Assembly: GCF_051622035.1 (NCBI RefSeq)
Contig: NC_135358.1
Span: 3,040,501-3,104,500 of the forward strand
Direction of reading: 5' to 3'
Length of the DNA: 64,000 nucleotides
Source of the DNA: Arctopsyche grandis
Taxonomy: Eukaryota; Arthropoda; Insecta; Trichoptera; Hydropsychidae
The notes below the pieces were generated by a model. That model had not been told where the DNA came from. It searched no databases and saw nothing but the letters and a program-made list of their open reading frames with translations. Shown here piece by piece: positions 39,131-63,999 of the stretch (position 1 is the first letter of the stretch; every line of letters starts with the position of its first letter). The position numbers and the translations under genes are program-made.

Positions 39131-40195
39131 CTATATGTGTTGATCGATCCAATCTCGGAACACTGATACTTTGGTATATGCTGAAGGGGATTGAGGGTTG
39201 TCACATCCCACATTCCTATTTCTCCATGAAATGATACCAATTACTTGTCCGTTGTAAGCGAGTGGGCCACCTTCGTCTCCATCGCAAGGCCCTTGACTGT
39301 CCACTCCTAGAGTACATATCATAGACCCGGTGACTGGATAATCAGGTAAATAATTTTGACAAATGAATCGGCTCATAATTTTAACAGTTGCCCGGTGAAA
39401 TCGGTCAGGTTTGCTCAAGTCATTCTATAATTCACAAAAAAAATTGAACTATCTTCGCATCGTTTAATTAAATAATTTATAGGATATTTGACTCACGTTT
39501 GTTCCCCAACCAGTTACCACAGCATTTGAGCCTGGCTCGGGTTCTATAAATGGACTAGGGAGGTTGATAATGCCAATGCCGATTCCCATAGTCAAAGCAG
39601 TGCTCAAGAAAACGAGAGAAATATCGTTTTCGTGATTACCACCGATCTCGTAATATTCGTGTGGGATGATCTTGGAGACTACAGAAATTACTCCACCACT
39701 CTTATGGGAGTTGGATCCAGCTCGGACTCTGTATGATTCCGGTCTACGTACACGTCTATATGATTTTTTTTACATATGTTTGTATTATTATTTTTTTTTA
39801 TAATTGATGAATGGTGGTAGAATTCAATGATTCGATTGAGTTTGTTAATTACCCGTCAGTGCATTTAGCAGCAGTCAAGATGATGTGATTGTTGATGATG
39901 GCACCACCGCAAATATGTCTAAAATTTCCGGTGACAAATTCGTCGTATAACAAGGATACCAGGTAAGGAGTTTCGATGATATTACCCTCGAGACCTCCTA
40001 CAATACGGTTGTCAACCATGGGGGCAGATTTGAGGCCAGCGCCTATATTTACAAAAATAATAAATGAAACGGCTCAAAAATCTAAATGTTTAACATGGAT
40101 ATAAGTGAAACGTAAAGGAGGTTTGTAATAAAAATGATTAATTTGTTACCATGGACGCACACCAAGAAGGCAGCAAACATAGTAAAGATCAGCAT
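39131..40195 (-). CDS. SPH-A: secreted S1A serine protease homologue, catalytically dead
   Basis: Four exons on the minus strand: 40195-40150, 40042-39853, 39755-39497, 39424-39131, all with GT-AG junctions (phases 1, 2, 0), giving 262 residues. Residues 1-16 (MLIFTMFAAFLVCVHG) are a signal peptide. A short pro-region ends at Arg28 before IVGG, so zymogen-type cleavage looks possible. The fold is that of chymotrypsin: CGG around Cys60, TAAKC at 72-76, NDIS with Asp123 (Asp102 of chymotrypsin), GWG at 161-163, PCDGDEGGP at 211-219, SWR at 231-233. Three expected disulphides (42-58, 168-182, 191-220 numbering) have their cysteines. The His57 position is Lys75 and the Ser195 position is Glu216, so no peptidase activity is expected. 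Position 189 is Gly and 216 is Arg, so the S1 pocket is not trypsin-like. A binding or regulatory role (as for azurocidin or insect protease homologues) is inference. Confidence 0.93.
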
Positions 40196-40250
40196 GGTGA
40201 ACACCGCGAAGTGACACTGCTCTATAAAAATCATATGCGAACTCGTGTGT

Positions 40251-40257
40251 ATTTATA
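40251..40257 (-). promoter_or_regulatory. TATA box of SPH-A
   Basis: TATAAAT followed by ACACACGAGT, 62 nt before the ATG. An upstream in-frame ATG at 40234 lies only 23 nt from the TATA box, before the expected transcription start about 30 nt downstream. This supports the ATG at 40195 as the true start. Confidence 0.75.
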
Positions 40258-41026
40258 CTCACTATTTCTTATTAAAAACAATGGCTGTAATCTAATGCAA
40301 TACATGTCAAAAATATTCTGAACTATTTATGTTTCTAAGAAAACGAAAAGCATTTTAATCATACGTAGAATCCATTCATGGTGATGGAAATCTGTCGCCA
40401 TCAATCAAAGCTGTTGTGTTATTTACGATAAGAATATGAAAGAGCTGATATCGCGTTTGGAGATTATTTAAATTAATGAAAAGTGTAGACAATAAATTTA
40501 ATGTAATTTAAATCCTTATAATTGCTCAACTCTAAAATTTTATATATACTAAATTTATATGCACTATCTCTCACAGAGGTGTCTCCTTGCGTATTGCAAG
40601 AATACATCCACGGTCTTAGAAGACCTGACACACTCGGGGAGGGCATTGTACATGAGCACACCCCTGTGAAAGACACAACCAGCTGTCTTCTTTTTCATTA
40701 CTCTACCTATGTACAGCTAAATTGTTCTTATTTCTATAATTACTATGGATATCACTATGTATTATTGTAAAATCCTTAAAATGATATGTATTGCATATAC
40801 TGTATATGTTATGCATCTATTGCATACATATGTATACTGTCTCGGTGGCCGTCACTGCAACGAAAGTGACTTATTCAAAAGTCGAAGAACCAAGGTTTTT
40901 CGCGATTTTTATGACAATATGTGAAATAGTCCGTTTACCATGCATACATATGCGTAGTATATACAAGAGCGGGTAGTTTTACCATACATATATAGTACTG
41001 TTTACCCAGAGACGTCTTTTCAGCTT
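40258..41026. other. Head-to-head intergenic region with repeat E
   Basis: Lies between the 5' ends of SPH-A (minus) and SPH-B (plus). 40258-40830 is duplicated at 51956-52960. Repeat E (40510-40700) is embedded, including AGAGGTGTCTCCTTGC and CCACGGTCTTAGAAGACC. ACTATGGATATC at 40742 is the empty target site of the hAT-type element found at 52592. No gene. Confidence 0.6.
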
Positions 41027-42190
41027 TTTCTGATCTTTACTATTTTTGATGCCTTCTTGGTGTGCGTCCATGGTAACTAATTAATCATTTTTATATCCAT
41101 GTTAAACATTTAGATTTTTGAGCCGTTTCATTTATTATTTTTGTAAATATAGGCGCTGGCCTCAAATCTGCCCCCATGGCAGACAGCCGTATTGTAGGAG
41201 GATTCGAGGGTAATATCATCGAAACTCCTTACCTGTTATACGACGAATTTGTCACCGGAAGTTTTAGACACATTTGCGGTGGTGCCATCATCAACAATCG
41301 CATCATCTTGACTGCCGCTAACTGCACTGACGGGTAATTAACAAACTTAATCGAATCATTGAATCCTACCACCATTTATCAATTATAAAAAAAATAATAA
41401 TACAAACATATGTAAAAAAAATCATATAGACGTGTACATAGACCGGAATCATACAGAGTCCGAGCTGGATCCAACTCCCATAACAGTGGTGGAGTAATTT
41501 CTGTAGTCTCCAAGATCATCCCACACGAATATTACGAGATCGGTGGTAATCACGAAAACGATATTTCTCTCGTTTTCTTGAGCACTGCATTGACTATGGG
41601 AAACGGCATTGGCATTATCAATCTCCCTAGTCCATTTACAGAACCCGCGCCAGGCTCAAATGCTGTGGTAACTGGTTGGGGAACAAACGTGAGTCAAATA
41701 TCCTATTAAACATTTAATTGAACGATGCGAACATAGTTCAATTTTTTTTGTGAATTATAGAATGACCTGAGCAAACCTGACCGATTTAACCGGGCAACTG
41801 TTCAAATTATAAGCCGATTCATTTGTCAAAATTCTTTACCTGCTTATCCAGTCACCGGGTACATCACCACTCGTCTCTCGACGCTCCGTGAGAACGGACG
41901 TGCCGAAGACGTACTCTCTGTGCGAGCGCTCATAATACAGCGATACGCCATACCGTCAAAAAACCCACACCTTTTTACATACACAACAAACACCCCCCAC
42001 AAAACGAACACCAAAAGAACACATGTTGGCACCATGCGAGGATCCAACCTGAAAAAGCGACTTAAGAAGACACTGATAACTACAACCGAAGCTCCTCAAC
42101 CAGGCTGCTCTCAGACCGCTCAGATGGAGACCGAGTGGCAGTTTCCAAAACATACGGCAAAGAACGTGAAAGATGTTTTTTGAATTTTAA

Positions 42191-43234
42191 ATTCAGGAGA
42201 AAAACAAATTTGAAGGGCTCTTGGAAGTTTCCGATGTCCCCAGAAGCGGTGGAAGAATCCCGCCCATCATCATGACAGCTACTGGCACTCACGGCAGCAT
42301 GATCGAGTCGATCAAGAAGTTTATAAAAGACTTCACAATGACTTACATTGGTCAAAATGATGTCAAGATACAATGTAAAAGTCTTGAAGACTTTAAAAAA
42401 CTTCGGGATGGATTGACACCAGACCGACAATTCCATACCTTTTCCAGGAAGGAGGAAAAGGAAATAAAAAGTGTCGTACGTGGCTTGCCAAAATTGCCGG
42501 AAGCTGATATTAAAGATGACATCATCAGACAGGGATTTCCTGTAACCAAAGTCATACAGATGAAGACGAAGGAGCCTAGGAGCAACGCCACCGAGCTATA
42601 CTTGGTGTTCTTCGAGCCATCGGTATCGGCAAAGAAGATTAAAGAAATCCGGTACATCTGTTACACAAAGGTCAGTGTCGTTAAATATACTAGTAAATCA
42701 CAAAATATTACTCAATGTTTCAGATGCCAAGAATATGGACACGCTGCGAAAAACTGCAATCGGCAGGCCAAGTGCGTCAAATGTGCCGGCACTCACCTCA
42801 CCGCACAATGCAATCAAGGAATAGTTACCCCTGCTGTCTGCTCAGGCTGTTCAGGATCTCACCCCGCTAACTTCAAAGACTGTCCAAAAAGACAGAGCTA
42901 TCTGAAAATGCTGGAATCGAGGAAGAATCGAGCATCAATTGTCAAAGCCAACCCTTGGAAACTCCCAGTGGTGCAGCCACAAAATATCCCGGTCGTTAAC
43001 GATCATAACTTCCCAAAGCTACCGACCATTAAAACTCCTTCACCAAATATCCCAAATATCCCTATAAAACCCCAACAACCAACCAATCCCAACATTCAAC
43101 CAACAACAGACCTAACTTCCATGGCGTCTATGACGAAGATGTTGAAGATCCTCCAGGAGATTCGTGCCAAGGCCAGCGGTTGCACCGACAAACTAGAACT
43201 CATGCTTGTCGAATATCTCGATGTCTTTGATTAA
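42191..43234 (+). pseudogene. Jockey-type ORF1 (gag-like, three zinc knuckles), 5' end broken
   Basis: Frame open from 42191 to the TAA at 43232-43234. Three cysteine knuckles follow one another around 42717-42890: CFRCQEYGHAAKNC, CVKCAGTHLTAQC and CSGCSGSHPANFKDC. They imply RNA binding in the retrotransposon RNP. A proline-rich C-terminal tail and a helical end (MTKMLKILQEIRAK) follow. The likely N-terminal part lies in another frame (from the ATG at 42033 or further upstream, to TGA at 42181-42183). A frameshift plus a TAA at 42188-42190 separates the two. ORF1 overlaps the start of ORF2 by a few bases. Confidence 0.88.
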
Positions 43235-45909
43235 CGGGAGGCGCCTGAACATTCTAGCTTGGAATGCTCGTGGACTTAAGAATAAGATTGACGAACTGGA
43301 GTCGGCGATCGGTGAGTACTGTGTTGACATAGTTTTAATCTCCGAGACCTTCTTGAAACCTCATATCCATATTAACCTACCTAACTTTAACTGCTATCGC
43401 GAAGACCGAGAACAGCATGGAGGGGGAGTTGCCATTTTTATAAAATCCTCAATTAAACATTGTCGCGTAATAACTCCGCCACTAAAAAATTTAGAACTAA
43501 CCGCCATCGATATAACAATTAACAACACCTGTCACATAGTAGCATCCGCTTACAATCCTCCCCAAAAACGATTATTGGCATCCGATCTTAACAAAATATT
43601 TAACATTGGTAGTTCGGTAGTGGTAGCTGGTGACTTTAATGCCAAACATCCGTTATGGAGTTGCGTAAACACTGACCAACAAGGCACAACTCTTTTTAAA
43701 TACATTCAACTAACAGATACAATCTTACTTCATCCGGATACATACACACACTATCCCACAAATAACTTAAACCATCCACACTAGATCTTGTCCTCGTCAA
43801 GAACTGCCCAAAAATATCGACACCAAATGCCCTTCAAACCCTGTCGTCTGATCATCTCCCGATAATCTTCTCAATCGACGGGAAACCCGAGGAAATCATC
43901 AAGCATAGTTGGGATTACGGGAGAGCTAACTGGCGAGAGTTCAAGTCGTACATAAATGACCAAACCATTCTAACTTCTACCACACTCACAAAAAAAACCG
44001 AAATCGACAGCTCCATAATACACCTAACGGAATCAATAACTCGATCCAAACACCTTCACATACCTAAGACACAATACATTGAACACAAATTAGAGATAAC
44101 TGACTTTGTTGCAAATCTAATTAAAAGTAAAAATAAACTCCGTAAAATTTGGCAAACATCAAAAAATCCAGCATTGAAAACATTAATTAAAAAGCTCACA
44201 TATCAAATTAAAATTAGAATCAAAGAAATCAAAAATGAAGCTTGGTCTAAAAAATTAGAAAAATTGAGCTCAGTTGATGGCTCTCTATGGAAATTAGCTA
44301 AAGCGATTCGCAGGACAAAAAACTCGATTCCTCCATTAGATGATGCAGGAATCTCAGTGACGCGTGATTGCGACAAAGCAGAACTATTATCAAAATCCTT
44401 CCAAAAACATCACACACTCACACAACATTACAATCACATACCAACGCATAATAAAGTCAACCGGTCCATTAAAATCATCACAAAAACTCCCACTAACAGT
44501 ACTAAAAATATAAAATTGGTGCATCCGTGTGAAATCCAAAATATAATACGTAATTTAAAAAATAAAAAGGCACCTAGGCGAGATTCAATAGATAACATCA
44601 TAATCAAACAACTTCCATTTAAAGCTTTAGTCTCACTATCTAAAATATTCAACGCATGTTTACTCACCGGGTATTTCCCAGAATACTGGAAAACAGCCAA
44701 CGTAATTCCCATACTTAAGCCCGATAAAAGCTCAAAAAACCCGGCCAATTATCGACCCATTAGCTTACTTTGAACGCTTTCAAAAATTCTGGAAAAAATA
44801 ATATACACACGTTTACTTAAAGTCGTAAATAAGAAATTAATAAATGAACAATTTGGATTTCGCACTGGACATTCCACGACCCAACAACTAACAAGACTAA
44901 CTGAACACGTGACGAAGAACTTTAATATGAAGAGAAGTACCGGAATGGTATGTCTCGACATAGAAAAGGCCTTCGACACGGTTTGGCACGATGGACTCAT
45001 TCATAAGCTCCTTAATAACAAAATACCAAACTACCTAATTCTCATCATCAAATCGTACTTAACTCGTAGAAAGCTAGTGGTTAGCGTAAATAATGAATTA
45101 TCGTCTCCAAAAATAATCGCAGCTGGCGTTCCGCAGGGGAGCTTGCTTGGCCCACTCTTGTTCTCCATATATATAAATGACATACCTATTCCAAAAAACT
45201 GTCACATAGCCCTATATGCAGATGATACAGCTTGCTTCACAAGTAGCAAAAAACCAGACACTATTCTTAAAAATCTTGAATTTGCAATTAAAAAAATTAC
45301 TGAACACTTCACAAAGTGGAAAATTCAAATTAATCAAACCAAAACAGACGCCATATTCTTTAGTGTTAGAAAACATAAGCCAAGTTCAGATCTGAAAATC
45401 CCCTCTGGAGAAAGTCTGAAATGGCAGTCAGTAATAAAATATTTAGGAGTAACGTTCGATAAAATAATGAGATGGGCACCTCACATTGAGGCAGCGAATT
45501 GCAAGGTGATGCGGGGTACATCCTCAATATACCCAATATTTAATCGCCACAGTTCTTTATCACCTCTAAATAAAATAAAATCATATCGCGCGCTCATATT
45601 ACCATTATTAACATATGCTTCACTTATATGGAATAACGCATCGAATACTAACCTTTCCATGCTCCAAATAATACAAAATAAATCCCTAAAAATAATTTAT
45701 AATACACCCATATATACTAACTTGAAAAAACTGTATGCCATATATAATATTCCGTTTGTTACAGACATTACTAACAAACTTACCAGTAGATTCTACAACA
45801 GAATCACTAATAAACATACTTACTAACGTGTGAAGAGTCTCGTTGATTACAAGAAAATGTCTATACCCTTCAGGTATAAACACAGATTACCTAAACACAA
45901 TCTGCTTTA
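43221..45909 (+). pseudogene. Jockey-type ORF2 (endonuclease + reverse transcriptase), mutated
   Basis: The ATG at 43221 overlaps the end of ORF1. Endonuclease landmarks: ILAWNARGLKNKIDEL, LISETFLKP, GGGVAIFIK, VVAGDFNAKHPLW. A one-base loss near 43778 shifts the frame. The protein continues in frame 2 without stops to a TGA at 44771-44773 (after NYRPISLL), then on through the palm: DIEKAFDTVW (about 44953-44985), GVPQGSLLGPLLF, and YADD at 45215-45226. A TAA at 45824-45826 precedes the probable original end near 45909 (IPFRYKHRLPKHNLL). No RNase H domain. Three lesions make it non-functional. Confidence 0.92.
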
Positions 45910-46266
45910 GGTCATCGACTTTAGAAAGTCTTTAATTAATATTATGTATTAGATGAATTATGAACATTTATAAGGATTGTAAATAGGTTTTTGAGCTATT
46001 TTTCCTATTATGCTTTAGATTAACATTATAATAATATAATACTGTGATTACTAAACAAATTAAATTAAAATTGTAAAATAGAAAATGATCAGTAGATCAG
46101 TAGCTATTAAAATAGATATAAGATGTATTGTGAACATAATTTCGTAATAATAAAAAGCATTTAAAAATCAAAAAAAACCGGGTACATAATATGTGCTCTA
46201 GGAGCGGGCAGTCAAGGGCCTTGCGATGGAGACGAAGGTGGCCCACTCGCTTACAACGGACAAGTA

Positions 46267-46899
46267 GAGTCTGTTCAAGAAACGAGCGACCTGGTTGACA
46301 GTGTTCGTAACTACCGGTTGACTGCAAAGTATGCGTTATGCATATATGTATATACATATGTATATTAATTTTTTAAAGTTTTTCTCAAAAATGAAACAAA
46401 GGGAACTTTTTTGTTATCTTAATTTATTTATATCTATATTACGTAATATATAAAAGTACAAAAACAAATACAAATAAAAATACAAAATATTTTTTATTTA
46501 GATTTATTATACGATATACAATCGAGCGCGGTGATGTAGTGGTAAGCTTAAAAGTAGTAATTTTGTCAATTATTGAAACAGGTAATTTTTCTGGAATTTT
46601 GAAACGGAATTGACGGGTTTTTTTGGATTATTATCTAGTTTTGGCGGAGGGAAATACCGGAGCGCACATGCCGCACCACTACATCACGCACGACTGTATT
46701 ATACCTATACTTTTACATTGTTGAAAAAAATAATTAACAATTTTTTTTATATTACTTATGTGTTGGGAACTTTGTAACCATCGTGTATGAAAAAGCGAAG
46801 ATACGTCCTCCTACGTCGAACGTCGAAGCGAAACTAATGACTACTGCATGTATGTACACTAATACTATCACCCAGGTCGCTCGTTTCTTGAATAGACTC
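46267..46899. mobile_element. TIR element inserted at TA in SPH-B exon 4
   Basis: GAGTCTGTTCAAGAAACGAG at the left and CTCGTTTCTTGAATAGACTC at the right are inverted repeats (one mismatch) that extend inward through CGACCTGG. TA flanks both ends (46265-46266, 46900-46901). Removing it restores the codon order GTA ATT GGT seen in SPH-A. TA targeting suggests Tc1/mariner-type mobilisation. No transposase; a second TIR element sits inside. Confidence 0.82.
46519..46696. mobile_element. Nested 178-bp TIR element
   Basis: CAATCGAGCGCGGTGATG and, inverted, CATCACGCACGACTG share GTGATGTAGTGG. They bound a short non-coding interior within the 46267 element. The target duplication is unclear (TATA/TATT). 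Confidence 0.55.
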
Positions 46900-47264
46900 T
46901 AATTGGTATCACTTCATGGAGAAATAGGAATGTGGGATGTGACAACCCTCAATCCCCTGCAGTATATACCAAAGTATCAATGTTCCGAGATTGGATCGAT
47001 CAACACATATAGAGTACCACAGTAAAGACGTACTTTGTTGACGTTACTTTAAGATAAAATACTTTTAAACTTCTACTTTTGTTTATCTGGAAGATATAAA
47101 AAAAATGTATACCGAATTAGTATCACCAATAATAAAGTATAAATTTTCAACGGATAATTGTTTTTATCAGAAATTTTTTTCAAACGAACATATGTACATA
47201 TGTATATCCTATTGATTAACCGTATAAAATTACATATTATGTATTTTATTTAACATATGTATAT

Positions 47265-47590
47265 TTACCAGGTAGGCTTGACAGGAAGACCCCAAAGTGC
47301 CTTCCCGGACAATTAAGTACATACAATGCAGCATTTTATTATTACATAAATCGCTGAATTAATCCATGTAGACATCTATGGATTTTAGATTTGTACATAA
47401 TTTTTATAAATTGTACATACAATAAATACAAAAGATTTGTGACAACAGGAAAGATGATTTTTTGCCAATTTTTGAGAAACCGTTTCAACAATGATCAGAT
47501 AGAATTGACAAACTCTGATGAGAAACGATCGATTTTGAGGCGCAAAACCCCCAAATCTAACCAGCAGTAAAGCGGATCGAACCCACTGAT
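47265..47590 (-). mobile_element. SINE with hairpin tail type A, head truncated
   Basis: The minus strand reads GGTTCGATCCGC, GGGGGTTTTGCG, AGAGTTTGTCAATTCTATCT, GTTGAAACGGTTTCTC, CCGGGAAGGCACTTTGGGG...AAGCCTACCTGG. It is the inverted counterpart of the SINEs at 38470 and 48648, placed beyond the 3' end of SPH-B just as those lie beyond SPH-A and SPH-C. Confidence 0.82.
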
Positions 47591-48189: not shown

Positions 48190-48640
48190 CGTAGAAAAGT
48201 CAAAATCGTTATGACCACAAGATTTTTTCCACAACGTATCTGAACGTATCAAGCTGAAAATTTATATTTGTATTCTTTATGTACTGCCTGAGAGTTAATA
48301 AGACTTTGGTCAGAATTTGTAAACCGGAAGTAGTAGTTATTATTTTAAAACAATATTTCATTATTTTATTTTGACCTTTTAAATTATTTTTGATATTTAA
48401 TGTGTATAATATTTATGGTCATTAATTTGAACAAAATCCGACAACTGGAACTTTTGTCTTGTGTACGATTCGTTACATTTGCGCTCAGTATTTATGTATA
48501 TCGAAAATTCTTTCACAGCCGGTATGTGTGAATGTGTATATTTCGTGTAAATGAGTAGGTAGGTAGGATAGGTAGAAACTAGAAATACAATAGGAACATA
48601 TTGAGTTTCGTTTGTGATCTATGTACATACATACATATGT
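48190..48640. repeat. Dispersed repeat D, copy 2
   Basis: Close match to 36750-37147 in the same orientation (AACGTATCTGAACGTATCAAG, AACCGGAAGTAGTAGT, CGACAACTGGAACTTTTGTC, AATACAATAGGAACATA). It marks the outer edge of the SPH-C segment. Confidence 0.78.
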
Positions 48641-48647
48641 AGTTCAT

Positions 48648-49620
48648 AGCCAGCAGTATACCTCAATGGCAGCGTGTATGTTTAGCACCAAGTGATCAGT
48701 GTTTTCGATCAGTTATACTGCTGGTTAGATTTGGGGGTATTTTGGACTCAAAATCGATCGTTTTTTATCAAAGTTTCTCAATTCTATCTGATCATTGTTG
48801 AAACGGTTCCTCAAAAATTAGCAAAAAATCATCTTTCTTGCTGTCACAAATCTTCTGTATTTATTGTGTACAATTTGTAAAAATTATGTACAAATCTAAA
48901 TTCTTAGATGTCTCAGTGGATTAATTATTTAATCAATTAATTAATTAATTAATTGTTATTTTGTGGTATTCAGCTTCTCGAAATACAGTGATTTATGTAA
49001 TAATAAAAGGTTGTGGCTATTTGCAGGTACTATATCTGTGAATTATTGGCTATTTGCAGATATTATATATGCGAAAGCATTCTGCGCATGCGCGTGAAAT
49101 TATAATCCGATTATAATTTATTACATTTAATGTATATGCTAGACTTGTTTAATCAATCGTTCATTATACACGAGGCAAATAAATTTCGCACGTTATTATA
49201 ATAGAGTTATATTATTTAGATAGTTCGCGGCTTGAACTTATATGTTCGAGTAGGTATTATACGTTTTATATGATAATAATTTTCTAACAATTATTAATAT
49301 TAACTAATTTGGATTATATTTTTTACCTACGTCACTTTACGAGTTCGAACTAAATTTTAAGAGGTTTAAAACAAAATTTTAACAGGAAACACGCTGACAG
49401 TGACAGTTCACGCGCATGCGCAGAAGGCTTTGCGCTTGACACAGATATAGTACCTGCAAATAGCCAACAATTCACAGATAACGTACCTGCAAATAGCCAA
49501 TAATTTGCAGATATAGTACCTGCAAATAGCCACAACCATAATAAAATGCTGTATTGTTTGTAAATAATTGTCCAGGAAGGCGCATTGGGGTCTTTCTGTC
49601 AAGCCTACTTGTTATATATG
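48648..49620 (+). mobile_element. tRNA-derived SINE, tail type A, split by a TIR element
   Basis: Head TATACCTCAATGGCAGCG and a decayed B-box, core TTTCTCAATTCTATCTGATC, GTTGAAACGGTTCCTC, then interruption at 49009-49537. After the interruption come AATGCTGTATTGTTTG and the hairpin CCAGGAAGGCGCATTGGGG...AAGCCTACTTG. Counterpart of the uninterrupted SINE at 38470. Confidence 0.87.
49009..49537. mobile_element. 529-bp TIR element inserted in the SINE
   Basis: GGTTGTGGCTATTTGCAGG and its perfect inverse CCTGCAAATAGCCACAACC extend to about 30 bp. ATAATAAAA flanks both ends (49000-49008, 49538-49546), a 9-bp target duplication that would suit Mutator-like elements. The right end repeats the GTACCTGCAAATAGCCA unit three times; GCGCATGCGC-type palindromes sit subterminally on both sides. 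No transposase. The uninterrupted paralogous SINE (38470) shows the empty site. Confidence 0.88.
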
Positions 49621-49745
49621 TTAAATAAAATACATATTATGTAATTTTATACGGCTAATCAATAGGATATACATACATACATATGTATGTATGTTCGTTT
49701 GAAAAATAGTTGTGAAAAAAACAAATATCCGTTGAAAATTTATAC

Positions 49746-49751
49746 TTTATT
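49746..49751 (-). terminator. Putative polyadenylation signal of SPH-C
   Basis: Minus-strand AATAAA about 116 bp past the stop, at the same relative position as in SPH-A. Confidence 0.5.
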
Positions 49752-49866
49752 GGTGATACTAATTCGGTATACATTTTTTTTAGATCTTCCAGATAAACAA
49801 AAGTAAAAGTTTAAAAGTATTTTATCTTAAAGTAATGTCAACAAAGTACGTCTTTACTGTGGTACT

Positions 49867-51893
49867 CTATATGTGTTGATCGATCCAATCCCGGAACATT
49901 GATACTTTGGTATATACTGCAGGGGATAGAGGGTTGTCACATCCCACATTCCTATTTCTCCATGAAGTGATACCAATTATTTGTCCGTTGTAAGCGAGTG
50001 GGCCACCTTCGTCTCCATCGCAAGGCCCTTGACTTCCCCCTCCTAGAGCACATATCATGAACCGGGAGACTGGATAGGCAGGTAAAGAATTTTGACAATT
50101 GAATAGGCTCTGAATTTGAACAGTTGCCTTGTTAAATCGGTCGGGTTTGCTCAAGTCAGTCTATAATTCATAAAAAAAATTGAACTTTCTTCGTATCATT
50201 TACTTAAATGTTTAATAGGATATTTGACTCACGTTTGTTCCCCAACCAGTTACCAAAGCAATTGAGCCTGGATTGGGTTCTGTAAATGGACTAGGGAGAT
50301 TGATAATGCCAATGCTGTTTCCCAAAGGCAATGCAGTGCTCAAGAAAACGAGAGAAATATCGTTTTCGTGATTACCACCAATCTCGTAATATTCGTGTGG
50401 GATGATCTTGGAGACTACAGAAATAACTCCACCACTGTTATGGGAGTTGGATCCAGCTCGGACTCTGTATGATTCCGGTCTACGTACACGTCTATATGAT
50501 TTTTTTTACATATGTTTGTATTATTATTTTTTTTATAATTGATGAATGGTGGTAGAATTCAATGATTCGATTAAGTTTGTTAATTACCCGTCAGTGCAGT
50601 TAGCAGCAGTCAAGATGATGTGATTGTTGATGATGGCACCACCGCAAATATGTCTAAAATTTCCGGTGACAAATTCGTCGTATAACAAGGATACCAGGTA
50701 AGGAGTTTCGATGATATTACCCTCGACACCTCCTACAATACGGTTGTCAACCATGGGGGCAGATTTGAGGCCAGCGCCTATATTTACAAAAATAATAAAT
50801 GAAACGGCTCAAAAATCTAAATGTTTAACATGGATATAAGTGAAACGTAAAGGAGGTTTGTAATAAATCAGCTGATAACTAAAAATAAAACTATCACTGT
50901 TTGATCTGTGTACATATGTAGCTTGTATTGGTTAGAAAGTTTGTTTTGGTGGAATAAACAATGAAATTTGAGGTTATGAGTTGCAGCCGGAAATACATAT
51001 GTATACTCATTTATGCCGGGAACCTTACAGTTTAGAATAGTTTATTAATACTAAGATTGCTTTAATGATTTGCTTTAAGAATAGATTATCAATGAGTGGT
51101 TGTCCATAAATGAGTTTATGTATTTACAGAAATGAACTTTTCAATCATCAGATAAATTAAATCAGCTGATAACTAAAAATAATTGTATGTGATGTATGTA
51201 TGTAAGCTTATTGTAAAAAACTAAATGTATGTAAGCTTATTGTAAATCATATTAACAATTAGATACAACATAACTTCTTATTGAATACTTATCTCGCAGA
51301 TAAAACTCCGTGAAGAGATATACTTTTAGCCGTGAAATGTCAGATTTGACATATTTGGCCAAAAATCAATATATGTATATCGTGTATTAAATTACATGAA
51401 GCTAGACGCCAAATTTGAAATTTATATATACATATGAGAGTTAAAACTATACATGTTTAAATATTAGAGATAACGAGAACCTATAGAGCAAATTTTATAA
51501 AATATAGAGTGAATTATAGGCGTTAAAACAATTAAAATCTGGAATGGGCATATCAAGGCGAAAAGGTTGAAGATAGATTATGGTAGGCTTACGTACCGTC
51601 ATAGACGTCACCATATCCGAGATTCTGGATTTTTGATACGCATTGTATACAATATTTTATCTCCAACGTAATGGCAGACGATACATTAACGTATATTGAT
51701 GACCAAAATGAGCAATACGGCAAAGTATGAAAACGATTGGATAAGATATAAGAGATATAAATAAAGGAGGTATGTTAAAATGACCACTAACACGAAAACC
51801 ATGTGAACTTAATAAGAGGTAAGTAATAAAAATTATTAATTTGTTACCATGGACGCACACCAAGAAGGCAGCAAAAATAGTAAAGATCAGCAT
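49867..51893 (-). CDS. SPH-C: secreted S1A serine protease homologue, catalytically dead
   Basis: Four exons on the minus strand: 51893-51848, 50777-50588, 50491-50233, 50160-49867; 262 residues; same phases as SPH-A. The signal peptide MLIFTIFAAFLVCVHG and the Arg28/IVGG junction are kept. The His57 position is Asn75 (TAANC, which also forms an N-C-T glycosylation sequon), Asp123 is kept, the Ser195 position is Glu216 (GDEGGP), and SWR is at 231-233. Intron 1 is 1,070 bp against 107 bp in SPH-A because a family-H repeat and flank were inserted. It is the nearest relative of SPH-A and lies in direct orientation in the duplicated segment. Differences from SPH-A cluster in exon 4 (QSLFNCQNSLPAYPVSRF). 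A pseudogene is not indicated: all splice sites and the frame are intact. Confidence 0.92.
50870..51800 (+). repeat. Dispersed repeat family H inside SPH-C intron 1
   Basis: The left part (TCAGCTGATAACTAAAAATA, TTTGAGGTTATGAGTTGC) matches 30300-30480. The H body from 51255 (AACAATTAGATACAACATAA) includes the deleted hairpin junction GATAAAACTCCGTGAAGAG and the CCAAAATGAGCAATACGGCA signature. SPH-A intron 1 keeps only the terminal AAGTGAAACGTAAAGGAGG. This hints that a repeat once sat there too. Confidence 0.82.
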
Positions 51894-51948
51894 GGTGAAC
51901 ACAGCGAAGTGACACTGCTCTATAAAAATCATATGCGAACTCGTGTGT

Positions 51949-51955
51949 ATTTATA
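51949..51955 (-). promoter_or_regulatory. TATA box of SPH-C
   Basis: TATAAAT followed by ACACACGAGT, 62 nt before the ATG at 51893, identical in layout to SPH-A. Confidence 0.72.
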
Positions 51956-52583
51956 CTGACAATTTCTTATTTAAAACAATGGCTGTAATCTTAGAGATAA
52001 CATATATATATATGTATATGTATGTGTAATACATGTCACAAATTTTATTAACTATTTATATTTCTAAGAAAACGAAAAGCTTGGCATTTTAATCATACGT
52101 AAAATCCTTTCATGGTGATAGAAATCTGTCGCCAACAATCAAATCTGTTGTGTTGTTTACGATAAGCCGATGAAAGAGCTGATATCGCGTTTGGAGATTA
52201 TTTAAATTAATGAAAAGTGTAGACAATAAATTTAATGTAATTGAAATCCTTATAATTTCGTTTTCTCAGAAATATAAATAGTTCATTAAAATTTTGTTTA
52301 TTTATATAATTTTAGCTAATTTAACACAACTATTTTTAATCAAATACATTCTTAATTGCTCAACTCTAAAATTTTATATATACTAAATTTATATGCACTA
52401 TCTCTCACAGAGGTGTCTCCTTGCACATTGCAAGAATGCATCCACGATCTTAGAAGACCTGACACACTAGGGGAGGAGATTGTACATGAGCACACCCCTG
52501 TGAAAGACACAACCAGCTGTCTTCTTTTTCATTACTCTACCTATGTATGTATGTACAGCTAAATTGTTCTTATTTCTATAACT
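51956..52583. other. Duplicated upstream flank with repeat E
   Basis: Matches 40258-40750 (upstream of SPH-A) with small indels, including repeat E at about 52350-52545. An extra stretch near 52255-52350 is present only here. No gene. Confidence 0.65.
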
Positions 52584-53135: not shown

Positions 53136-53388
53136 ATGCTGATCTTTATCATTACTGCTGCCATCTTGATCATCGATTTTCTACATCCATCTTAAAAATG
53201 TAGATTTTTGAGATCATTTATTTATTATCTTTATAAATATAGGCGATGTCAAATCTTCGCCCATGGTTAATGAACGCATTGTAAGAGGCAGTCCAGATGA
53301 CATCGTCAATGTTTCTTTCCATGAAAGCTTCAGACATGTTTGCGGTGGTACCATCATCAGATGTGACTGCAGTTAATTGAATTGACAG
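53136..53388 (+). pseudogene. SPH-D: decayed serine protease homologue, exons 1-2 only
   Basis: A TATA box (TATAAAT at 53075) lies 61 nt before ATGCTGATCTTTATCATTAC, the family exon 1. The exon-1 donor is deleted and the frame runs into TAA. Exon 2 (53243-53388) reads PMVNERIVRGSP, FRHVCGGTII, then a stop (TGC AGT TAA) where the active-site region should be, and lacks about 40 bp. Exons 3-4 are absent, except possibly the scrap at 54405. Confidence 0.85.
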
Positions 53389-53424
53389 GTAATTACTAAA
53401 CTTAATTTTATTTTTATATACCAA

Positions 53425-54404: not shown

Positions 54405-54475
54405 ACTTTTATGACACCAATTAATTTATCTCCCATGAAATGTGGTCCACCTTCATCTCCATGAAAAGGCCCTTA
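54405..54475 (-). pseudogene. Exon-4 scrap of a serine protease homologue
   Basis: The minus strand reads AAGGGCCTTTTCATGGAG, ATGAAGGTGGACCAC and AATTAATTGGTGTCAT, aligning with the GPCDGDEGGP...LIGI region of SPH-E/F exon 4. The codon frame is lost. Confidence 0.65.
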
Positions 54476-54635
54476 AGCACGAACAATTGACAAATACAAA
54501 AAAATAAAAATGATTTTGTTTTCTGAATTTTATTTACAAGCTTAAAAATGAAAAAAGAGTTTCTTAAAAATAAAGTCATAATCAATAAAAATACACATCA
54601 GTTATTTATCAATGAGATTTTTGTTGTTGTACATT

Positions 54636-57009: not shown

Positions 57010-57210
57010 GAAGATTTTTACATCTAATATATAATTTTGAAAGAGACTTTGTAAGTATGTGTATATCTTTGGTTGGGAAATTTTTTTTCGATTCAAATAA
57101 ATTTAATAAAAAAAACAAATGAATATTTACTATTAGATTCTCCAATGTTTACGCTGTTTCTATTACAAATACTGAGCAAAGCCGGGTAAAAAAACTAATA
57201 AATATATTAT
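57010..57210 (+). repeat. Dispersed repeat G, Helitron-like 3' end, copy 2
   Basis: GAAAGAGACTTTGTAAGTAT, TTCAAATAAATTTAATAAAA and ATTACAAATACTGAGCAAAGCC match 6485-6695. GAGCAAAGCCGGGTAAAA is close to Helitron terminal hairpins. Confidence 0.5.
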
Positions 57211-57212
57211 AT

Positions 57213-58060
57213 TTTGAACATTTGAAACAGCTTCATGAGGATATGCAAGTTAGATTTAATGATATTATAGGTATAAATATAAATATTCCAGATTGGGTGA
57301 TAGATCCACTTAGTTTGAATTTAATTGATATTGATATCGCATTGCAAAAAAGTCTGATATATCTGCTATGTAATATGAATGCACAAGTAATATTTAAACT
57401 AAATAAATATAGTTTTTGGATCAGTACTGAAATAACGAGTATATTTCCACAACTTTGGAAGAAGGCAAGTTTATATTTCACTGTATTTCCCATATACATA
57501 TTGTTGCGTAGGGGTGGGTGGAGGATCCAAATAAATGGCCAAAGTCGCTTCAAAGTATTTATTGGGTGATTAAGGATATCCACGCACTGCCAGTGCTTCG
57601 TCCAGAATGCCTTCATATGGCCTAAGTACCTGCTTATAAAGGGCAGCTTGCTCAGTGCATCTTCCTCGACGCGTTTGTTTACCTATCGTTATAGTCACGC
57701 ACCAGATATGGAGTCCCACAGTCTCGCGCTGTCAGTTCTGAGAACTCTAGCGGGAAGTGGCTGGGTGCCGTTGCCGACCACCAAGTCCATTCGGGGGTCT
57801 CCATTGTAAGCCGACAGCACTTATATCTGGAGATTATTCTTGAAAACCAATTATAACGGCGGTTCCTTGTAGCATATGCTACAATATTATCTCGTCGAAT
57901 CTGGATTTAGTCGAGTTATGCGTCTCTTCCCAAAATCTCGTAACTGTCTTGATGTTCTTAAAAGAGGCGATCTCCATATGTCACTAACAACATTTGGGTC
58001 AGATATAAATAAACTCGCTAAGTTTACCTCAGGCACAAGCATCACATTAAATAAAATAAT
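57213..58060 (+). pseudogene. Second hAT transposase C-terminus, split by an LTR
   Basis: 57213-57500 encodes FEHLKQLHEDMQVRFNDI, IPDWVIDPLSLNL, and FWISTEITSIFPQLWKKA with FTVFPI. After a 382-bp insertion, 57890-58060 continues YYLVESGFSRVMRL, RNCLDVLKRGDLHMSLT and INKLAKF. This is the hAT dimerisation region in the ZBED5/SCND3 style (YLVESGFS, RNRLDxxKRGDL). It is a different protein from the 54636 remnant. The N-terminal two-thirds is missing. Confidence 0.83.
57502..57883. mobile_element. Solo LTR-like insertion (382 bp)
   Basis: Begins TGTTGCGTAGGGGTGGGTGG, ends TGTAGCATATGCTACA (TG...CA), and is flanked by ATAT at 57498-57501 and 57884-57887. A 4-bp target duplication fits Gypsy/Ty3-type integration. 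No internal coding region remains. Confidence 0.7.
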
Positions 58061-58226
58061 GTTTCAATTTATTACTTATTTTCATTACATTATGTTTAAA
58101 ACAAAACTTCATCGATTGTTACTACGTACATAGATAAAGTAAAAATATATTTCGTAAAAATATGTTTATTCAAATTTGTAAATATAAAATAAAGTTTATA
58201 TAATATATAATATTTTGTTTTAATAT

Positions 58227-58532
58227 TGTTGCGTGGACGTGAAGAGGGGGCTTCCAGGATCGGAGAGAAAGATGCAGGAGGGTTGTAGAATTCGTTTATT
58301 CGTCTGCTCTCGTCGGCGCTCCGGGTCTGCCAGAATGGTTTCCAATTCGATAGTGCCAATTCCAATGGTTTCCAATTCGACAACTATTGGTCGATGAGTC
58401 AGACGATCCTATTGGCCGTTGCATATGGCTCATTCATTCGTTGAGGCCATTTTGGCGGGAACGAGAGATCAGGTGATCTGCGCTAGTAAACCATCGGTCC
58501 ACGAGCGCCACTCACCTAATCTCTACGTTACA
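58227..58532. mobile_element. Second solo LTR-like insertion (306 bp)
   Basis: Starts TGTTGCGTGGACGTG, ends CTCTACGTTACA, with ATAT flanks at 58223-58226 and 58533-58536. It shares only the terminal TGTTGCGT with the LTR at 57502, so it belongs to a different family. It contains a direct repeat, GGTTTCCAATTCGA, at about 58336 and 58367. Confidence 0.7.
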
Positions 58533-58813
58533 ATATGTACTTTTTTTTCGAGCAGATATGGGGGGGGGGAGGCACAGAAAATTATTTAACGCAAAAGAAG
58601 GCCACGGTTCAAAAAAGGTTGAGAAACGCTGATTTAAATAATCTCCAAAAGCGATATCTCCTCTTTCGTCGTCTTATCGTAAAAATCACAATCAACAACA
58701 CATTTGATTGTTACCGACAAACTTATGATAAATGATAAAAACAAATTTGATAGCGACAAAATTTTTCAAAAATGACATGTGTTGCTTTTCATGTGAGCTA
58801 TACATCGTGGGTT

Positions 58814-58823
58814 TATATAAATA
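58814..58823 (+). promoter_or_regulatory. TATA box of SPH-E
   Basis: TATATAAATA followed by CACGAGT, 63 nt before the ATG. The TATA-to-ATG distance and the CACGAGT neighbour match SPH-A, C and D. Confidence 0.75.
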
Positions 58824-58876
58824 CACGAGTACACGTGTTATTATATTAAAGCGTTTCTAACTTCGCTTTGCTAACC

Positions 58877-59911
58877 ATGCTGATCTTTACTATTGCTGCT
58901 GCCTTCTTGGTGTGCGTCCATGGTAACAAATCAATCATTATCCTTTTTTTTTTTTTTTTTTGATTTTTAATAACATTTATTAATTATTTTTGTAAATATA
59001 GGCGCTGCCCAATCTCCGCCCATGGTTAATGAACGCGTTGTGGCAGGTATTCCAGGCGAGATCGCCAAATTTCCTTACCTAGTATCCATGTTATACGACG
59101 AACTCCTCACCGACAACTTCAAACATGTTTGCGGTGGTGCTATCATCAGAGTTGATGTTGTCATAACTGCTGCTAACTGCACTTACGGGTAATTAGCAAA
59201 CTAAATCGATTAATTAAATTCTACAACCATTTATTTTCTATGAAAAATGAAATAGTGCCTACTATGTAAACAATTGCATGTAGACGTGTACGTCAAGCGG
59301 CACAATACAGAATCCGAGCTGGATCCAACTTTCATAACGCTGGCGGACAAATACGCAAAGTCTCCAGAATCGTCCAACATGAAAAATACTTGACCAATGG
59401 TAATCACGATAGCGATATTTCCCTCCTTTATTTGGAAGCAGAATTGACTTTGGGACCCACGGTTGCCATCATAACCCTCCCAGTTCTAAATGAAAATGTC
59501 TTAGACAATTCTCCTGCTGTCGTATCGGGTTGGGGACTTGGGAGCGTGAGTAAAACATTCCATGGAACATTTTATTCAATTTTGTTATGTTTATATTCAT
59601 ATGTTTTTTTTTATAAATTGTAGAACAATTTGAAACCTGACAGATTTAACAGCGGAACCGTCCAAATTTATAACCCTTCCAGTTGTACTGCACTTTTAGC
59701 TAATATTAATGAAGTCACCGATAGTATGATATGTGCTACATCATCGCTAAATCAAGCGCCTTGCGATGGAGATGAAGGTGGCCCACTTGTCATCGGAAAT
59801 AAGCTAATTGGTATCATTTCATGGAGATATAGGAGCATGCCATGTGGCAGTAATAATTATCCTTTAATATATACCAAAGTATCCAGGTTCAGATCCTGGA
59901 TAGGATTTTAA
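58877..59911 (+). CDS. SPH-E: secreted S1A serine protease homologue, catalytically dead
   Basis: Exons 58877-58922, 59002-59188, 59284-59545, 59624-59911; 260 residues. Signal peptide MLIFTIAAAFLVCVHG. The pro-region ends ER27, but the mature start is VVAG instead of IVGG. TAANC has Asn74 at the His57 place; SDIS has Asp122 (Asp102); GWG; PCDGDEGGP has Glu216 at the Ser195 place; SWR follows. The two cysteine pairs around the active site are kept. It is diverged from SPH-A/C (no duplicated flanks), so it is an older paralogue. The persistence of Glu and Asn at the same two sites suggests selection for a non-enzymatic role. Confidence 0.93.
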
Positions 59912-60439
59912 ATGTAAATACTACATCAAATACTTTATAAGTTTATGCTACTTTATTAAGATGTAATCAATGTAAGCTTCAACTTTCAAAGTATATATGT
60001 ATGTATAGTATTATATATCCAATAAATTATTCAACGGATAATAATTGTTTTTATCACTATTATTGTTTTACAATATCATATCGATTAAACGTTTAAAAAT
60101 GACATACATAATGATACATGAATATGTATGTATGTAGATCTCCAACGAAGCTCAATATGTACCTGTATTGTTTTATACGTGAACCTATTGAAACTTGCCT
60201 ATCAGTAACAAATTCTTCTCATATACTATGCATAAAATAGCAATTCATTTATCTTTGTTAGTTTTTTTGTTTGTAAAAAACTTTAATAACGATTTTGATT
60301 AGATTACCCCGACAACCTTTTTCTGTCTATAAAAATGATTGAAATAATTATCGACTTTTTCCGATCAGTCGGAAATTTTTCAGATCATTTTTTCCAGTAT
60401 AATAATAAATATATTTATAAAAAAACCAAAACTGTGCAG
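59912..60439. other. 3' flank of SPH-E
   Basis: Non-coding AT-rich sequence with an AATAAA at 60021-60026, about 110 bp past the stop. Confidence 0.45.
60021..60026 (+). terminator. Putative polyadenylation signal of SPH-E
   Basis: AATAAA in CCAATAAATTATTCAACGG. The ATTTTCAACGG neighbourhood also occurs after SPH-A and SPH-C, which supports a shared 3' end. Confidence 0.55.
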
Positions 60440-60860
60440 TCTATTCAAAATTTATCTACTACAAGTGAGATCTTTTCCTTTTAGAAAAGTCAAAAATGTT
60501 GTGACCACACACAATTTTTTCCACACTATCTATTGAAAATTTATAATTGTATTTTTATGTGCTTAATTATAAATGACAAAGTTTTGGGTAGAATTCGTAA
60601 ACTGGAAGTAGAATTCGTAAACCGGAAGTAGTATTATTTTTAAACAATACTTCATTATTTTATTTTTACCTTTTAAATTATTTTCTTGATAGTTTATGCT
60701 TATAGCATTTATGGTGATATTAAGTAATAAAAAAAATATTTAACAAAATTCAACAACCAGAAGTGGAACTTTTGTCTTGTGTGAGTTTCCCCACATTAGC
60801 GCTTAAACTTGTATCGAAAATGTTCTCACAGCCGGTATGTGTGCGTCATTATTGAATTTT
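60440..60860. repeat. Dispersed repeat D, copy 3 (diverged)
   Basis: TTTTAGAAAAGTCAAAAATG, CGTAAACCGGAAGTAGTATT, CACAGCCGGTATGTGTG match 48180-48530. It contains a local duplication of GTAGAATTCGTAAACYGGAA. Confidence 0.68.
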
Positions 60861-60874
60861 GCATTTAAATAACA

Positions 60875-61146
60875 CATTGATAAAGTCGTGGGTTTATGTG
60901 TGTGGTAAAATAAATTTATGTTCGGCGAGATTTATTGATACACACACACAGAGAAATAGCGTTTATGGGGAATGACGGGGTTGTTTTGACTACTGCATAT
61001 CCGAACATTTAAAAGGAGGGTGCACACAGTAGATGGACAGTTCAAAGAAGCAGGGGTTCCATATGGACCTCTTGAGTCGTAGAATAAAAGCCATGAATTA
61101 ATTTCGTCCTATCATATAGATCGCTGAATCCACCCCTATGCAACAA
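60875..61146 (-). mobile_element. LTR-like fragment, minus
   Basis: The minus strand starts TGTTGCATAGGGGTGGATTC, resembling the start of the LTR at 57502 (TGTTGCGTAGGGGTGGGTGG). The other end and target duplication are not clear, so boundaries are approximate. Confidence 0.45.
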
Positions 61147-62921
61147 TACATAATACGTACTTTCAATACCAGTAAAACACTTATTTTATGAATCATAAAT
61201 TCTTTAAAAATTGTTTATATAAAAATATATTTGACTCATTTAAACTACAACAGGTGGCCCTTGATTGTTTCTTTAAAAACAATAAAACAATTATCAATTT
61301 AAAAAATCCAATTTTTTGATATGAAGATCGATCTTTTATACTTATCGTTATCTTTATAAATTGCATTATTGTCACTTCCGTCTATATGTTCTTTAGATAT
61401 CTCAATTACTTTGTCTAAATGTGACCGCAATTTAAAAATGCAGTCGTAATTAATATTTCATGTTTTGTACAGTAAAAATATGGAACATCAATGGAAATCA
61501 TTCATTGACAATCGAATCTATTGTATGTACTAACAGATTGATTTTATCTACAAGACGATGAAAAAAGTATTTTAATGAATAATAGGTACGGTACAGTCAT
61601 GGATAGATACGTATTTGTAAATGTCCGAAATACTCGGTAATTCAAAACAGCCACTACTTGCATTGCCTCTTACTAGGAATTCCTCTATTGTTTAACCCTA
61701 CTTTCTCTTCTCTGGATTGCTTATTATTAAAAAAAAAAATACAAATCTGTATTGCGAGATTATTGGTTTTTTCGCGGTCTTTTCATAATTTCTGTTTCTA
61801 TTTATTTTTTTAATTACGTGCATCTTATTTTAATGAAAAATGGCACAAACACGAAAATCGATTGAAAGAAACAGGCTCATATTATTTTAATACATTTCCA
61901 AAGGCCAGGATAGATGTAAAATTCTGAGAAACTTTAATTATTGCGATGTGCAATTCAAACAACGTTAATAAAATACAGTCAGATTAGTTCTATAAAATAA
62001 ATCGATCAAAAGTCAGAAGAACTAGGAAGAGAACACTGTGTCAAGATGTGACTTCAACGACCAATTCATTCAAAATGCCAAAAACAGACCTTCTGAGCTA
62101 GCTGGAGACATGAAAAAAAGAATGAAATTAAAATTTTTCTTCGCAAACCATAAGAAGAAGGCTGATGAAAGCTGAATAAAATTTATCAATATTTTTAATA
62201 ATTTAATTATTATTTTAAAATGTCCAATATCAACACTAGACGAAACAATCTTAATTAGACAATATATAGCATTCGTTAAGAAATTATTTATATGTATATA
62301 TACAAACATATAATGATATGAATTTCCAAAGGTGGAAGATAAGAATCAACCGGTAATAATGGATAATTGCATATTAGAGAAAACTAAATCAAGAATACAA
62401 TTACAATATTAATGATTATATATTTAATATTATCGATTAGGTATTTAATATTAACGATTGTGTATTTAATATCAATGATTATGTATTTAACATCTTTCTA
62501 TTGTGTAACAGTGATAATCGATACTTTTATCTACAGGCTTTTTGGGATAAAGTCTTTAAACATATGTACATACGTAGGTGCAAATACACATGTATCATAT
62601 ATACATTATGCTCGAGTGAAAATCATGAATTTTGGATTTTCAATAATGGACTTTAAAATCGTACGAAAGGAACGTGAAATAAAAATAATCATTGATTTTA
62701 AACAATTTCTTGTGCCTCCAACCAATCGGTTTATCTCAACAAAAACTTTGGAAAGGTCCAAAAATTTTGAAATGGTAAAAAGGAAAAGTGAAAATCTAAA
62801 ATTCGCGTTTTTCGCTCCTACTTTATATTTATTTTTCATCTAGTATCTTATCTCTAAGATGATATCTTATCATTTAATTTTTATTGTTTTAATTATTTTT
62901 TCGTGAGTAATAAATTGTGGG
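61147..62921. other. AT-rich non-coding upstream of SPH-F
   Basis: 62410-62490 carries three imperfect TTAATATYRWYGATTRTGTATT units. A 143-codon plus-strand frame at 62412-62843 begins in these repeats and has a matching antisense frame. I see no domain, signal or splice support and do not call it a gene. Confidence 0.4.
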
Positions 62922-62928
62922 TATAATA
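62922..62928 (+). promoter_or_regulatory. TATA box of SPH-F
   Basis: TATAATA, 63 nt before the ATG. The CACGAGT neighbour seen in paralogues is changed to CGCCAGT. Confidence 0.65.
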
Positions 62929-62984
62929 CGCCAGTACTTACACTATTTTGTTAGAGCATTTTATTTCATTTTGCTGCATTAGCA

Positions 62985-63999
62985 ATGCTGATCTTTTCTA
63001 TTGCTGCTGCCTTCTTGGTTTGCGTCCATGGTAACAAATCAATCATCTTGATCCAATTTTTGATTTTTGAGATCTTTTATTAACTATATTTGAAAATATA
63101 GGCGCTGTTCAATTTCCACGAATGGTTGATGAACGCATTGTAGGAGGCGTTCCAGGTGAGATCATCTTCGAACCTTACGTGGTATCCTTGTTATACGACG
63201 AACTCCTCACAGGAAATTTCAACCATATTTGCGGTGGTTCCATCATCAGTATTGATGTTATCTTGACTGCTGCCAACTGCACTGATGGGTAACTAACTTA
63301 ATCGACTCATAAAATTTTACGACCATTTATCTGTTAAAAAATAAATAATGCATATGTAAAAAAAATCAAATAGACGTGTACGTAGACCGGAACAATTCAG
63401 GATCCGATCTGGATCCAACTTCCATAATGCCGGCGGGGAAATAGACTTGGTCCAAAGGATCGTCCAACACGAAAAATACCAGTACGGTAAACACGATTAC
63501 GATATTTCCCTCATTTTCTTGACCAGACAATTGATTTTGGGACCCAAAATTCGCGTCATCAACCTCCCAGCGCAAAATCTAGATCTTGCTGACAGTACTA
63601 GTCTTACCATATCGGGTTGGGGACTCAACGTAAGTAAATCATTCCATTAAACATTTAATAAAATTGTGTCATGATAATTCAAATTTCTTTTACGAACTGT
63701 AGAAGAACCTCAAACCTGACAATTTTAACATGGCATCCGTCAATACGTTTAACCACGGCCTATGTGTCTCATATTTATCTCCAATCAATCCAGTCACCGA
63801 CAACATGATCTGTGCTATAGGATTACACAATCAAGGGCCTTGCGATGGAGATGAAGGTGGTCCACTTGCCACCAGAAATAATGTTCTAATTGGTATCACT
63901 TCATGGAGAAATAAAAACGTTATGTGCGGCGACTATGATTACCCCGCTGTGTATACCAAAGTATCCAAGTTCAGAAACTGGATCGAAGAAAACATGTGA
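62985..63999 (+). CDS. SPH-F: secreted S1A serine protease homologue, catalytically dead
   Basis: Exons 62985-63030, 63102-63288, 63374-63629, 63703-63999; 261 residues, ending one base before the window end. Signal peptide MLIFSIAAAFLVCVHG. The pro-region ends ER27 before IVGG. TAANC has Asn74 at the His57 site, YDIS has Asp121, GWG is at the exon 3 end, PCDGDEGGP has Glu214 at the Ser195 site, and SWR is followed by a conserved Cys. Intron 3 uses GTAAGT. It is closest to SPH-E (AGSNFHNAGG, RIVQHEKY, LGP) and about 3 kb downstream in the same orientation, so the two look like a tandem pair. Non-enzymatic secreted function is inferred. Confidence 0.93.

Follow-up and report, generated by a model that had tools for sequence, protein, structure and literature searches.

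The 64,000-nucleotide stretch of the Arctopsyche grandis genome analysed here (the window; C4:3040501-3104500, contig NC_135358.1, of the 475.7-Mb assembly GCF_051622035.1, with a GC content of roughly 32%) carries a cluster of trypsin-fold genes in which the catalytic base (His57) and the nucleophile (Ser195) have both been replaced. The cluster comprises four intact genes (A, C, E and F), a dead copy (B) and two relics (D and D'), and a fifth intact gene (G) lies 2.2 kb beyond the window. An earlier sequence-only reading had described four intact genes and one pseudogene with GDEGGP around residue 195, and this description is borne out by the codon pattern, by splice models and by Pfam.

The gene cluster and its altered active site

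Codons spelling GDEGGP are found at six places in the window, compared with a mean of 0.00 over 100 shuffles, and GDSGGP codons are absent from it. Genes A, C, E and F have four exons each, bounded by GT/AG splice sites, and translate without an internal stop. They share a layout in which a signal-peptide-like start (MLIF...VCVHG) and a short propeptide precede a complete trypsin domain (Table 1). When the spliced proteins without their signal exon were used as Pfam queries, PF00089 (Trypsin) was the only domain reported, matching from position 1 or 2 to 220 of 220 in all four proteins (E values of 5.8e-46 for A, 2.4e-47 for C, 2.1e-46 for E and 1.5e-45 for F), which places them in the S1A family. 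With approximately 10-12 residues (by eye) between the signal-like start and Arg15, they are not clip-domain serine protease homologues (SPHs). Gene G (about C4:3106692-3107702) also has an intact reading frame, and reads TAASC, GDDGGP and SWRN.

In all five intact genes His57 and Ser195 are both replaced and Asp102 is retained, which fits the sequence definition of SPHs, the replacement of at least one of these three residues. Residue 57 is Lys in A, Asn in B, C, E and F (and, by eye, in D) and Ser in G; G has Asp at residue 195, and all other copies in which this residue is legible (A, B, C, D', E and F) have Glu. The claim that Ser195 is always replaced by Glu therefore holds within the window and fails beyond it, and the claim that diverged paralogues (A/C versus E/F) keep the same two unusual residues is not borne out in that form, as the sister gene G carries Asp195 and Ser57. 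Because G carries Asp195, it is an acid at 195, and not Glu, that is invariant.

Arg15, Ile/Val16 and six domain cysteines are kept along with Asp102 in A, C, E and F, and Asp194 and Gly193 are kept in the intact genes. Genes A, C, E, F and G have in common Asp192, an Arg directly after Trp215 and a three-residue insertion in the 217-220 loop; owing to this insertion, the name Arg216 for that residue reflects its order after Trp215 and not structure. Asp189 of the specificity pocket is lost, with Gly, Ala or Ser in its place, Pro190 is found in four of the five intact genes, and E has Leu226. Residue 99 is Tyr in G instead of His. Asn57-Cys58-Thr59 forms an N-glycosylation sequon (by eye) in three of the intact genes (C, E and F) and is absent from A and G; it plays no part in the argument.

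Among the five genes 89 of 255 columns are invariant, and 16 of these 89 differ from both T1 and T6, two trypsin genes found elsewhere in the genome; seven of the 16 differ because T6, or both T1 and T6, have a gap. Among A, C, E and F there is no variation at positions 190-197; adding G introduces variation at 190 (Ala/Pro) and 195 (Asp/Glu). At codon 195 the four intact window genes have GAA and G has GAT, where T1 and T6 have TCT; at codon 57, A has AAA, the other three intact window genes AAC, G AGC, and T1 and T6 CAC. The Asp-Glu, Asn-Lys and Asn-Ser changes are single-step codon changes here; Ser (TCT) to Asp (GAT) takes two.

Table 1. Members of the cluster and inserted elements, with positions counted from the first nucleotide of the window.
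Feature	Position	Strand	Exons	Basis
Gene A, intact, 262 aa	39131..40195	-	40195-40150, 40042-39853, 39755-39497, 39424-39131	
Pseudogene B	41027..47009	+		tblastn pieces, exon-1 scan, sequence
Jockey-type LINE in B exon 4	41865..46176	+		open reading frames, Pfam, both flanks
Second insertion in B exon 4, short element	46267..46899	+		sequence of both edges
Gene C, intact, 262 aa	49867..51893	-	51893-51848, 50777-50588, 50491-50233, 50160-49867	
Relic D, exon 2 piece lacking internal sequence	53242..53367	+		tblastn, sequence
Relic D', exon 4 fragment	54410..54472	-		codon pattern, tblastn, sequence
Gene E, intact, 260 aa	58877..59911	+	58877-58922, 59002-59188, 59284-59545, 59624-59911	
Gene F, intact, 261 aa	62985..63999	+	62985-63030, 63102-63288, 63374-63629, 63703-63999	

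Pseudogene B has no ATG in its signal exon and an in-frame 9-nt loss in exon 2 (41153-41333); exon 3 lies at 41430-41688, and exon 4 is in three pieces, broken by two insertions. Asn57, Glu195 and SWR are still legible. The first insertion, a Jockey-type long interspersed nuclear element (LINE), is flanked on both sides by the target-site duplication ACCGGGTACAT (by eye) and has open reading frames for a zinc-knuckle-like protein, an endonuclease (Exo_endo_phos, E 1e-16) and a reverse transcriptase (RVT_1, E 9.5e-39). The second is a short element with inverted ends of about 28 nt, flanked by TA (by eye). Just past the fragment of relic D, by-eye alignment places Asn57 and then a stop codon replacing Cys58, and relic D' has retained GDEGGP and lost Cys191. 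In gene C, intron 1 measures 1,070 nt and the signal exon lies about 1 kb upstream, beyond an insertion of approximately 960 bases, as judged from repeat spacings.

Genes A and C are borne by a direct duplication, with pieces at 36751-40713 and 48230-52547, some 10-12 kb apart, and B lies in inverted orientation between the pieces. Partial LINE copies are found near 74, 6009, 17342, 17756, 28171, 33679 and 55415. A 168-nt inverted repeat at 2291-2694 (arms 99% complementary, 68 nt apart) is perhaps a recent foldback element, and a PIF1-helicase fragment at 10728-10952 on the minus strand (Pfam E 6.2e-8) is perhaps a Helitron remnant. An Rfam search gave no match.

Origin of the cluster and relatives in the genome

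A tree of 17 rows of joined segments places A, C, E, F and G in one clade (support 99/99), with G branching outside A, C, E and F (82/88) and a weakly supported order of E and F (81/74). This tree has a midpoint root only, and the clade, T1 and the other genes meet in a polytomy; four rows, all from other inactive genes, fell in no group. The trees of single exons are without strong conflict, exon 2 joining E and F (95) and exons 3 and 4 giving low support there (33 and 49). The recovery of the acid-195 proteins as one clade supports, within this genome's sample, a single ancestral loss of catalysis, as had been suggested from the window.

The sequence-only reading regarded catalytic orthologues at the same loci in close relatives as an argument against a conserved non-enzymatic function. 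Within this genome, no catalytic copy is found at the locus: GDSGGP is absent from the window, and the flanks, fetched as eight stretches covering 30 kb upstream and 50 kb downstream, contain no match to the family exons besides G. Exon 4 of F, searched against the whole genome, matched 42 times (98 candidates, all scored). F, G, E, A and C were the top five, and next came two genes on C1, S2 (inactive) and T1. T1 is the best catalytic match, with His57, Asp102, Ser195 and Asp189, and it has the same four-exon plan as the cluster genes and a similar start, MLFLTIAAAFLVCANG. T6 and T7 are nearly identical trypsin genes in inverted arrangement, approximately 3.3 kb apart (L027, C7:5121586-5126652).

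The other inactive genes on C1 read Gln57/Leu195 (S2), Arg57/Val195 (S3), Gln57/Met195 (S8) and Tyr57/Ile195 (S9), and the triad has apparently been lost more than once in this genome. These four inactive S1 genes are at the C1 loci L017, L018, L032 and L033, of which L017 and L018 adjoin catalytic trypsins.

The GDEGGP pattern has 25 hits genome-wide, six of them in this cluster. Eleven of the 19 hits elsewhere have an Asp codon at 194, and on examination none of the 11 reads as a trypsin exon, the locus L038 among them being a weak relic-like match (E 0.001); the remaining eight have a Glu codon at 194. The 11 hits of the GDDGGP pattern are G and ten others, one of which is an S1 exon. It belongs to a distant S1 gene on C11 (L053/L058, C11:25231708-25234500, minus strand) that reads TAAHC, with His57, and GDDGGP, and lacks the loop Arg; it is preceded by a spacer that is acidic and repetitive (DDRKDGDD...). 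Searches of bacterial/archaeal and of viral contig collections gave no relative.

Rates of change and selection

The signal exons of A, C, E and F are 89-98% identical, and exons 3 and 4 are 66-73% identical except in the A-C pair. Conservation of the introns is about at the level of exons 3 and 4, and among the coding parts the signal exon generally ranks highest. Ratios of nonsynonymous to synonymous divergence (dN/dS) by the Nei-Gojobori method are 1.21 for A-C, 1.01 for A-E, 0.64 for A-F, 0.93 for C-E, 0.61 for C-F and 0.80 for E-F. In a two-ratio codon model (219 codons), omega is 0.84 for the clade and its stem vs 0.24 for the T1 and T6 branches (likelihood ratio test statistic, LRT, 27.1; P 1.9e-7), and a separate ratio for the stem (1.52) is not supported (LRT 1.6).

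We fitted codon site models with custom Python code, using 257 of 264 columns in the four-gene set. The comparison of M1a and M2a gave an LRT of 52.2, with 25% of sites at omega 6, and the largest LRT in 40 simulations under the M1a null was 6.74, this parametric bootstrap covering the plain four-gene model only. By exon, the LRT was 3.9 for exon 2 (not significant), 15.1 for exon 3 and 26.8 for exon 4. With double and triple substitutions allowed it was 20.9 (P 2.9e-5) in the four genes; with G added (255 codons) it was 56.2, and 18.3 (P 1.1e-4) when multi-nucleotide terms were included.

Positions with a naive empirical Bayes posterior above 0.9 for positive selection, numbered by alignment to chymotrypsinogen, are 26, 27, 83, 84, 95, 109, 117, 128, 131, 135, 137, 147, 150, 157, 163, 165, 167, 169, 170, 171, 179, 185, 186, 208, 223, 226, 241 and one unnumbered insert position. 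By the same alignment they fall mostly in loops (83-84, 117, 128-137, 147-150, 163-171, 185-186, 223); 226 lies within the old pocket, not on its rim.

These rates could also arise if constraint had simply been relaxed, with a redundant family drifting to death and the selection signal an artefact of few sequences, multi-nucleotide mutation or gene conversion. Pairwise dN/dS values of 0.61-1.21 and a ratio of nonsynonymous to intron divergence (dN/K) of about 1 are what drift would give, one pseudogene and two relics stand next to four intact copies, and the low support of the exon 3 and 4 trees for E and F vs G is in keeping with it. Drift is nevertheless hard to reconcile with the intact frames of the four window genes and G: in a neutral-drift simulation the probability of encountering no stop was 0.004 for C, 0.0055 for E and 0.0125 for F (0.355 for A, which is recently duplicated). 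In addition, M2a exceeds M1a far beyond the null simulations of the plain model, and still outperforms it with multi-nucleotide terms, and the cysteines, Arg15 and positions 191-197, except for Asp/Glu at 195, are fixed. We therefore regard drift as unlikely. The analysis supports diversifying selection on genes with intact frames, that is, strong constraint mixed with positive selection and not neutrality. This agrees with the proposal of selection for something besides catalysis; of the combination named as evidence against it, dN/dS near 1 with frequent frameshifts, the mean is indeed near 1 but the intact genes have no frameshift or internal stop.

Possible role of the proteins

The explanation we favour, and hold to be rather probable, is that these genes encode a secreted pseudo-trypsin scaffold in which the cleft is sealed and the loops bind a partner that changes. 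It builds on what the analysis shows, namely the gene plan, the kept activation site and Asp194, the lost nucleophile, base and pocket, one origin within the sample, and accelerated and diversifying change. A trypsin gene copy at this locus would have lost catalysis once, before the present copies diverged. His57 would have become Asn, Ser or Lys, Ser195 an acid (Asp or Glu), and Asp189 would have been lost, with Asp192 and the Arg after Trp215 gained along with the three-residue insertion in the 217-220 loop. Since the start is signal-like, the Arg15-Ile/Val16 site still looks cleavable and Asp194 is kept, the products are probably secreted, processed at that site and folded like activated trypsin, presumably with a sealed, non-cutting cleft. 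The fast sites would lie at the surface, and the loops would track a protein partner that itself changes, be it host, microbe, mate or inhibitor; binding is the most likely job of these proteins. Rapid change in proteins that stay intact is often seen where binding proteins take part in an arms race. Either residue 57 or the Arg that follows Trp215 may form a pair with the acid at 195, or this acid may simply be tolerated.

Several observations weigh against this explanation. The dN/K values of the mature exons range from 0.96 to 1.29 and every interval includes 1, so that mature-exon divergence does not exceed the neutral (intron) level overall and dN/K alone is no proof of positive selection; likewise, model M0 is no different from omega 1 (P 0.29). 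The site models draw on 4-5 sequences from one genome and on our own code. Residue 195 falls in the constrained class (0.83), as do most invariant columns, and position 57 is not fixed across the five genes. Finally, the Ser195Asp change of the C11 gene apparently has an independent origin, and since that gene has Asp195 without the Arg, an acid at 195 does not need the Arg.

We also considered that the proteins might be decoys, inactive gut trypsins soaking up dietary or serpin-type inhibitors and thereby sparing the catalytic trypsins. T1 has a trypsin-type pocket and the exon plan of the cluster, and diversifying selection could act on inhibitor-facing loops. The idea is weakened, and in our view improbable, because the pocket used by canonical inhibitors is ruined in the cluster, with Asp189 changed to Gly, Ala or Ser, Pro190 in four of five genes, an Arg after Trp215, and Leu226 in E.

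Alternatively, the acid at 195 could be the working part of the former active site, where it would bind a cation or ligand together with Asp102, Asp192 and neighbouring bases. Each of the six window copies legible at 195 has an acid there, and so does G; Asp192 and the Arg occur in all five intact genes, and synonymous differences within the motif indicate that time to vary has passed. Residue 195 is Leu, Val, Met or Ile in the other four inactive S1 genes that were read. On the other hand, His99 is Tyr in G, position 57 varies, the pattern comes from one clade only, without independent co-variation, and the C11 gene combines Asp195 with His57 and no Arg, which makes this role quite improbable. 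That the proteins are still enzymes with a rewired triad is very improbable, as the fold, the activation site, Gly193 and Asp102 are kept but residue 195 offers no nucleophile, His57 is gone and the pocket residues are replaced.

Inactive proteases are common in insects. Like the cluster proteins, insect non-clip SPHs have an S1A fold, lost triad residues and a trypsin-type activation site; unlike them, the cluster is a tandem of single origin, with an acid at 195, the Arg after Trp215, the three-residue insertion and evidence of diversifying selection. A recent survey describes the role of insect inactive proteases as poorly understood, and in its account of residue 195 in the 125 SPHs of Tenebrio molitor, Gly195 is found in 26 and D and E are among the residues seen in 1-4 SPHs; an S195E replacement is thus not unheard of (PMC11172050).

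The scabies mite inactivated protease paralogues (SMIPP-S) are comparable: they are S1 proteins without activity, in which residues are substituted and loops altered near the cleft and the pocket (PMC13194640). Der p 3 comes first among the PDB matches listed for the cluster, followed by other S1 proteases. Membership in SMIPP-S, suspected from the Der p 3 match, is not supported by these matches, as no chain named SMIPP-S is among the best 60 of 345, or the best 60 of 101. Binding through an inactive S1 domain, as proposed here, is attributed to protein Z, haptoglobin, viper VaaSPH-1 and the MET/RON ligands (PMC13194640). The cluster proteins differ from protein Z and haptoglobin in having only a short propeptide before the protease domain. 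Protein Z and haptoglobin carry extra domains, and in protein Z Lys and Asp replace His and Ser.

A fast-evolving serine protease cluster has reportedly been found in a study of the Anopheles female reproductive tract. The small secreted salivary gland protein genes of the Hessian fly are described as clustered, with conserved signal exon and intron, diversified mature exons and positive selection, their non-coding parts being highly conserved and their coding parts highly variable (PMC2955719). Those are different, small proteins, and unlike in their genes the introns and mature exons of the cluster diverge approximately equally. The listings from searches of open-licence literature showed no description of a cluster with acid-195, Asp192 and the Arg, and no open-licence papers were found for GDEGGP with serine protease or for glutamate with catalytic serine. 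Tentatively, this may be an undescribed pseudo-trypsin family in which acid-195, Asp192 and the Arg lock a dead cleft into a rigid scaffold, while the loops around it serve as variable surfaces for binding a protein of a host, microbe or mate in an arms race.

Dead proteases as a kind are already known; what is new is the shared acid-195/Asp192/Arg cleft together with a catalytic relative and a measured shift in selection. Within one genome there are a catalytic relative sharing the exon plan, five dead copies that are intact and have a derived cleft in common, transposon-broken copies and a shift from purifying to diversifying selection. With the variable positions mapped and five genes defined, the question of what a dead protease does becomes testable.

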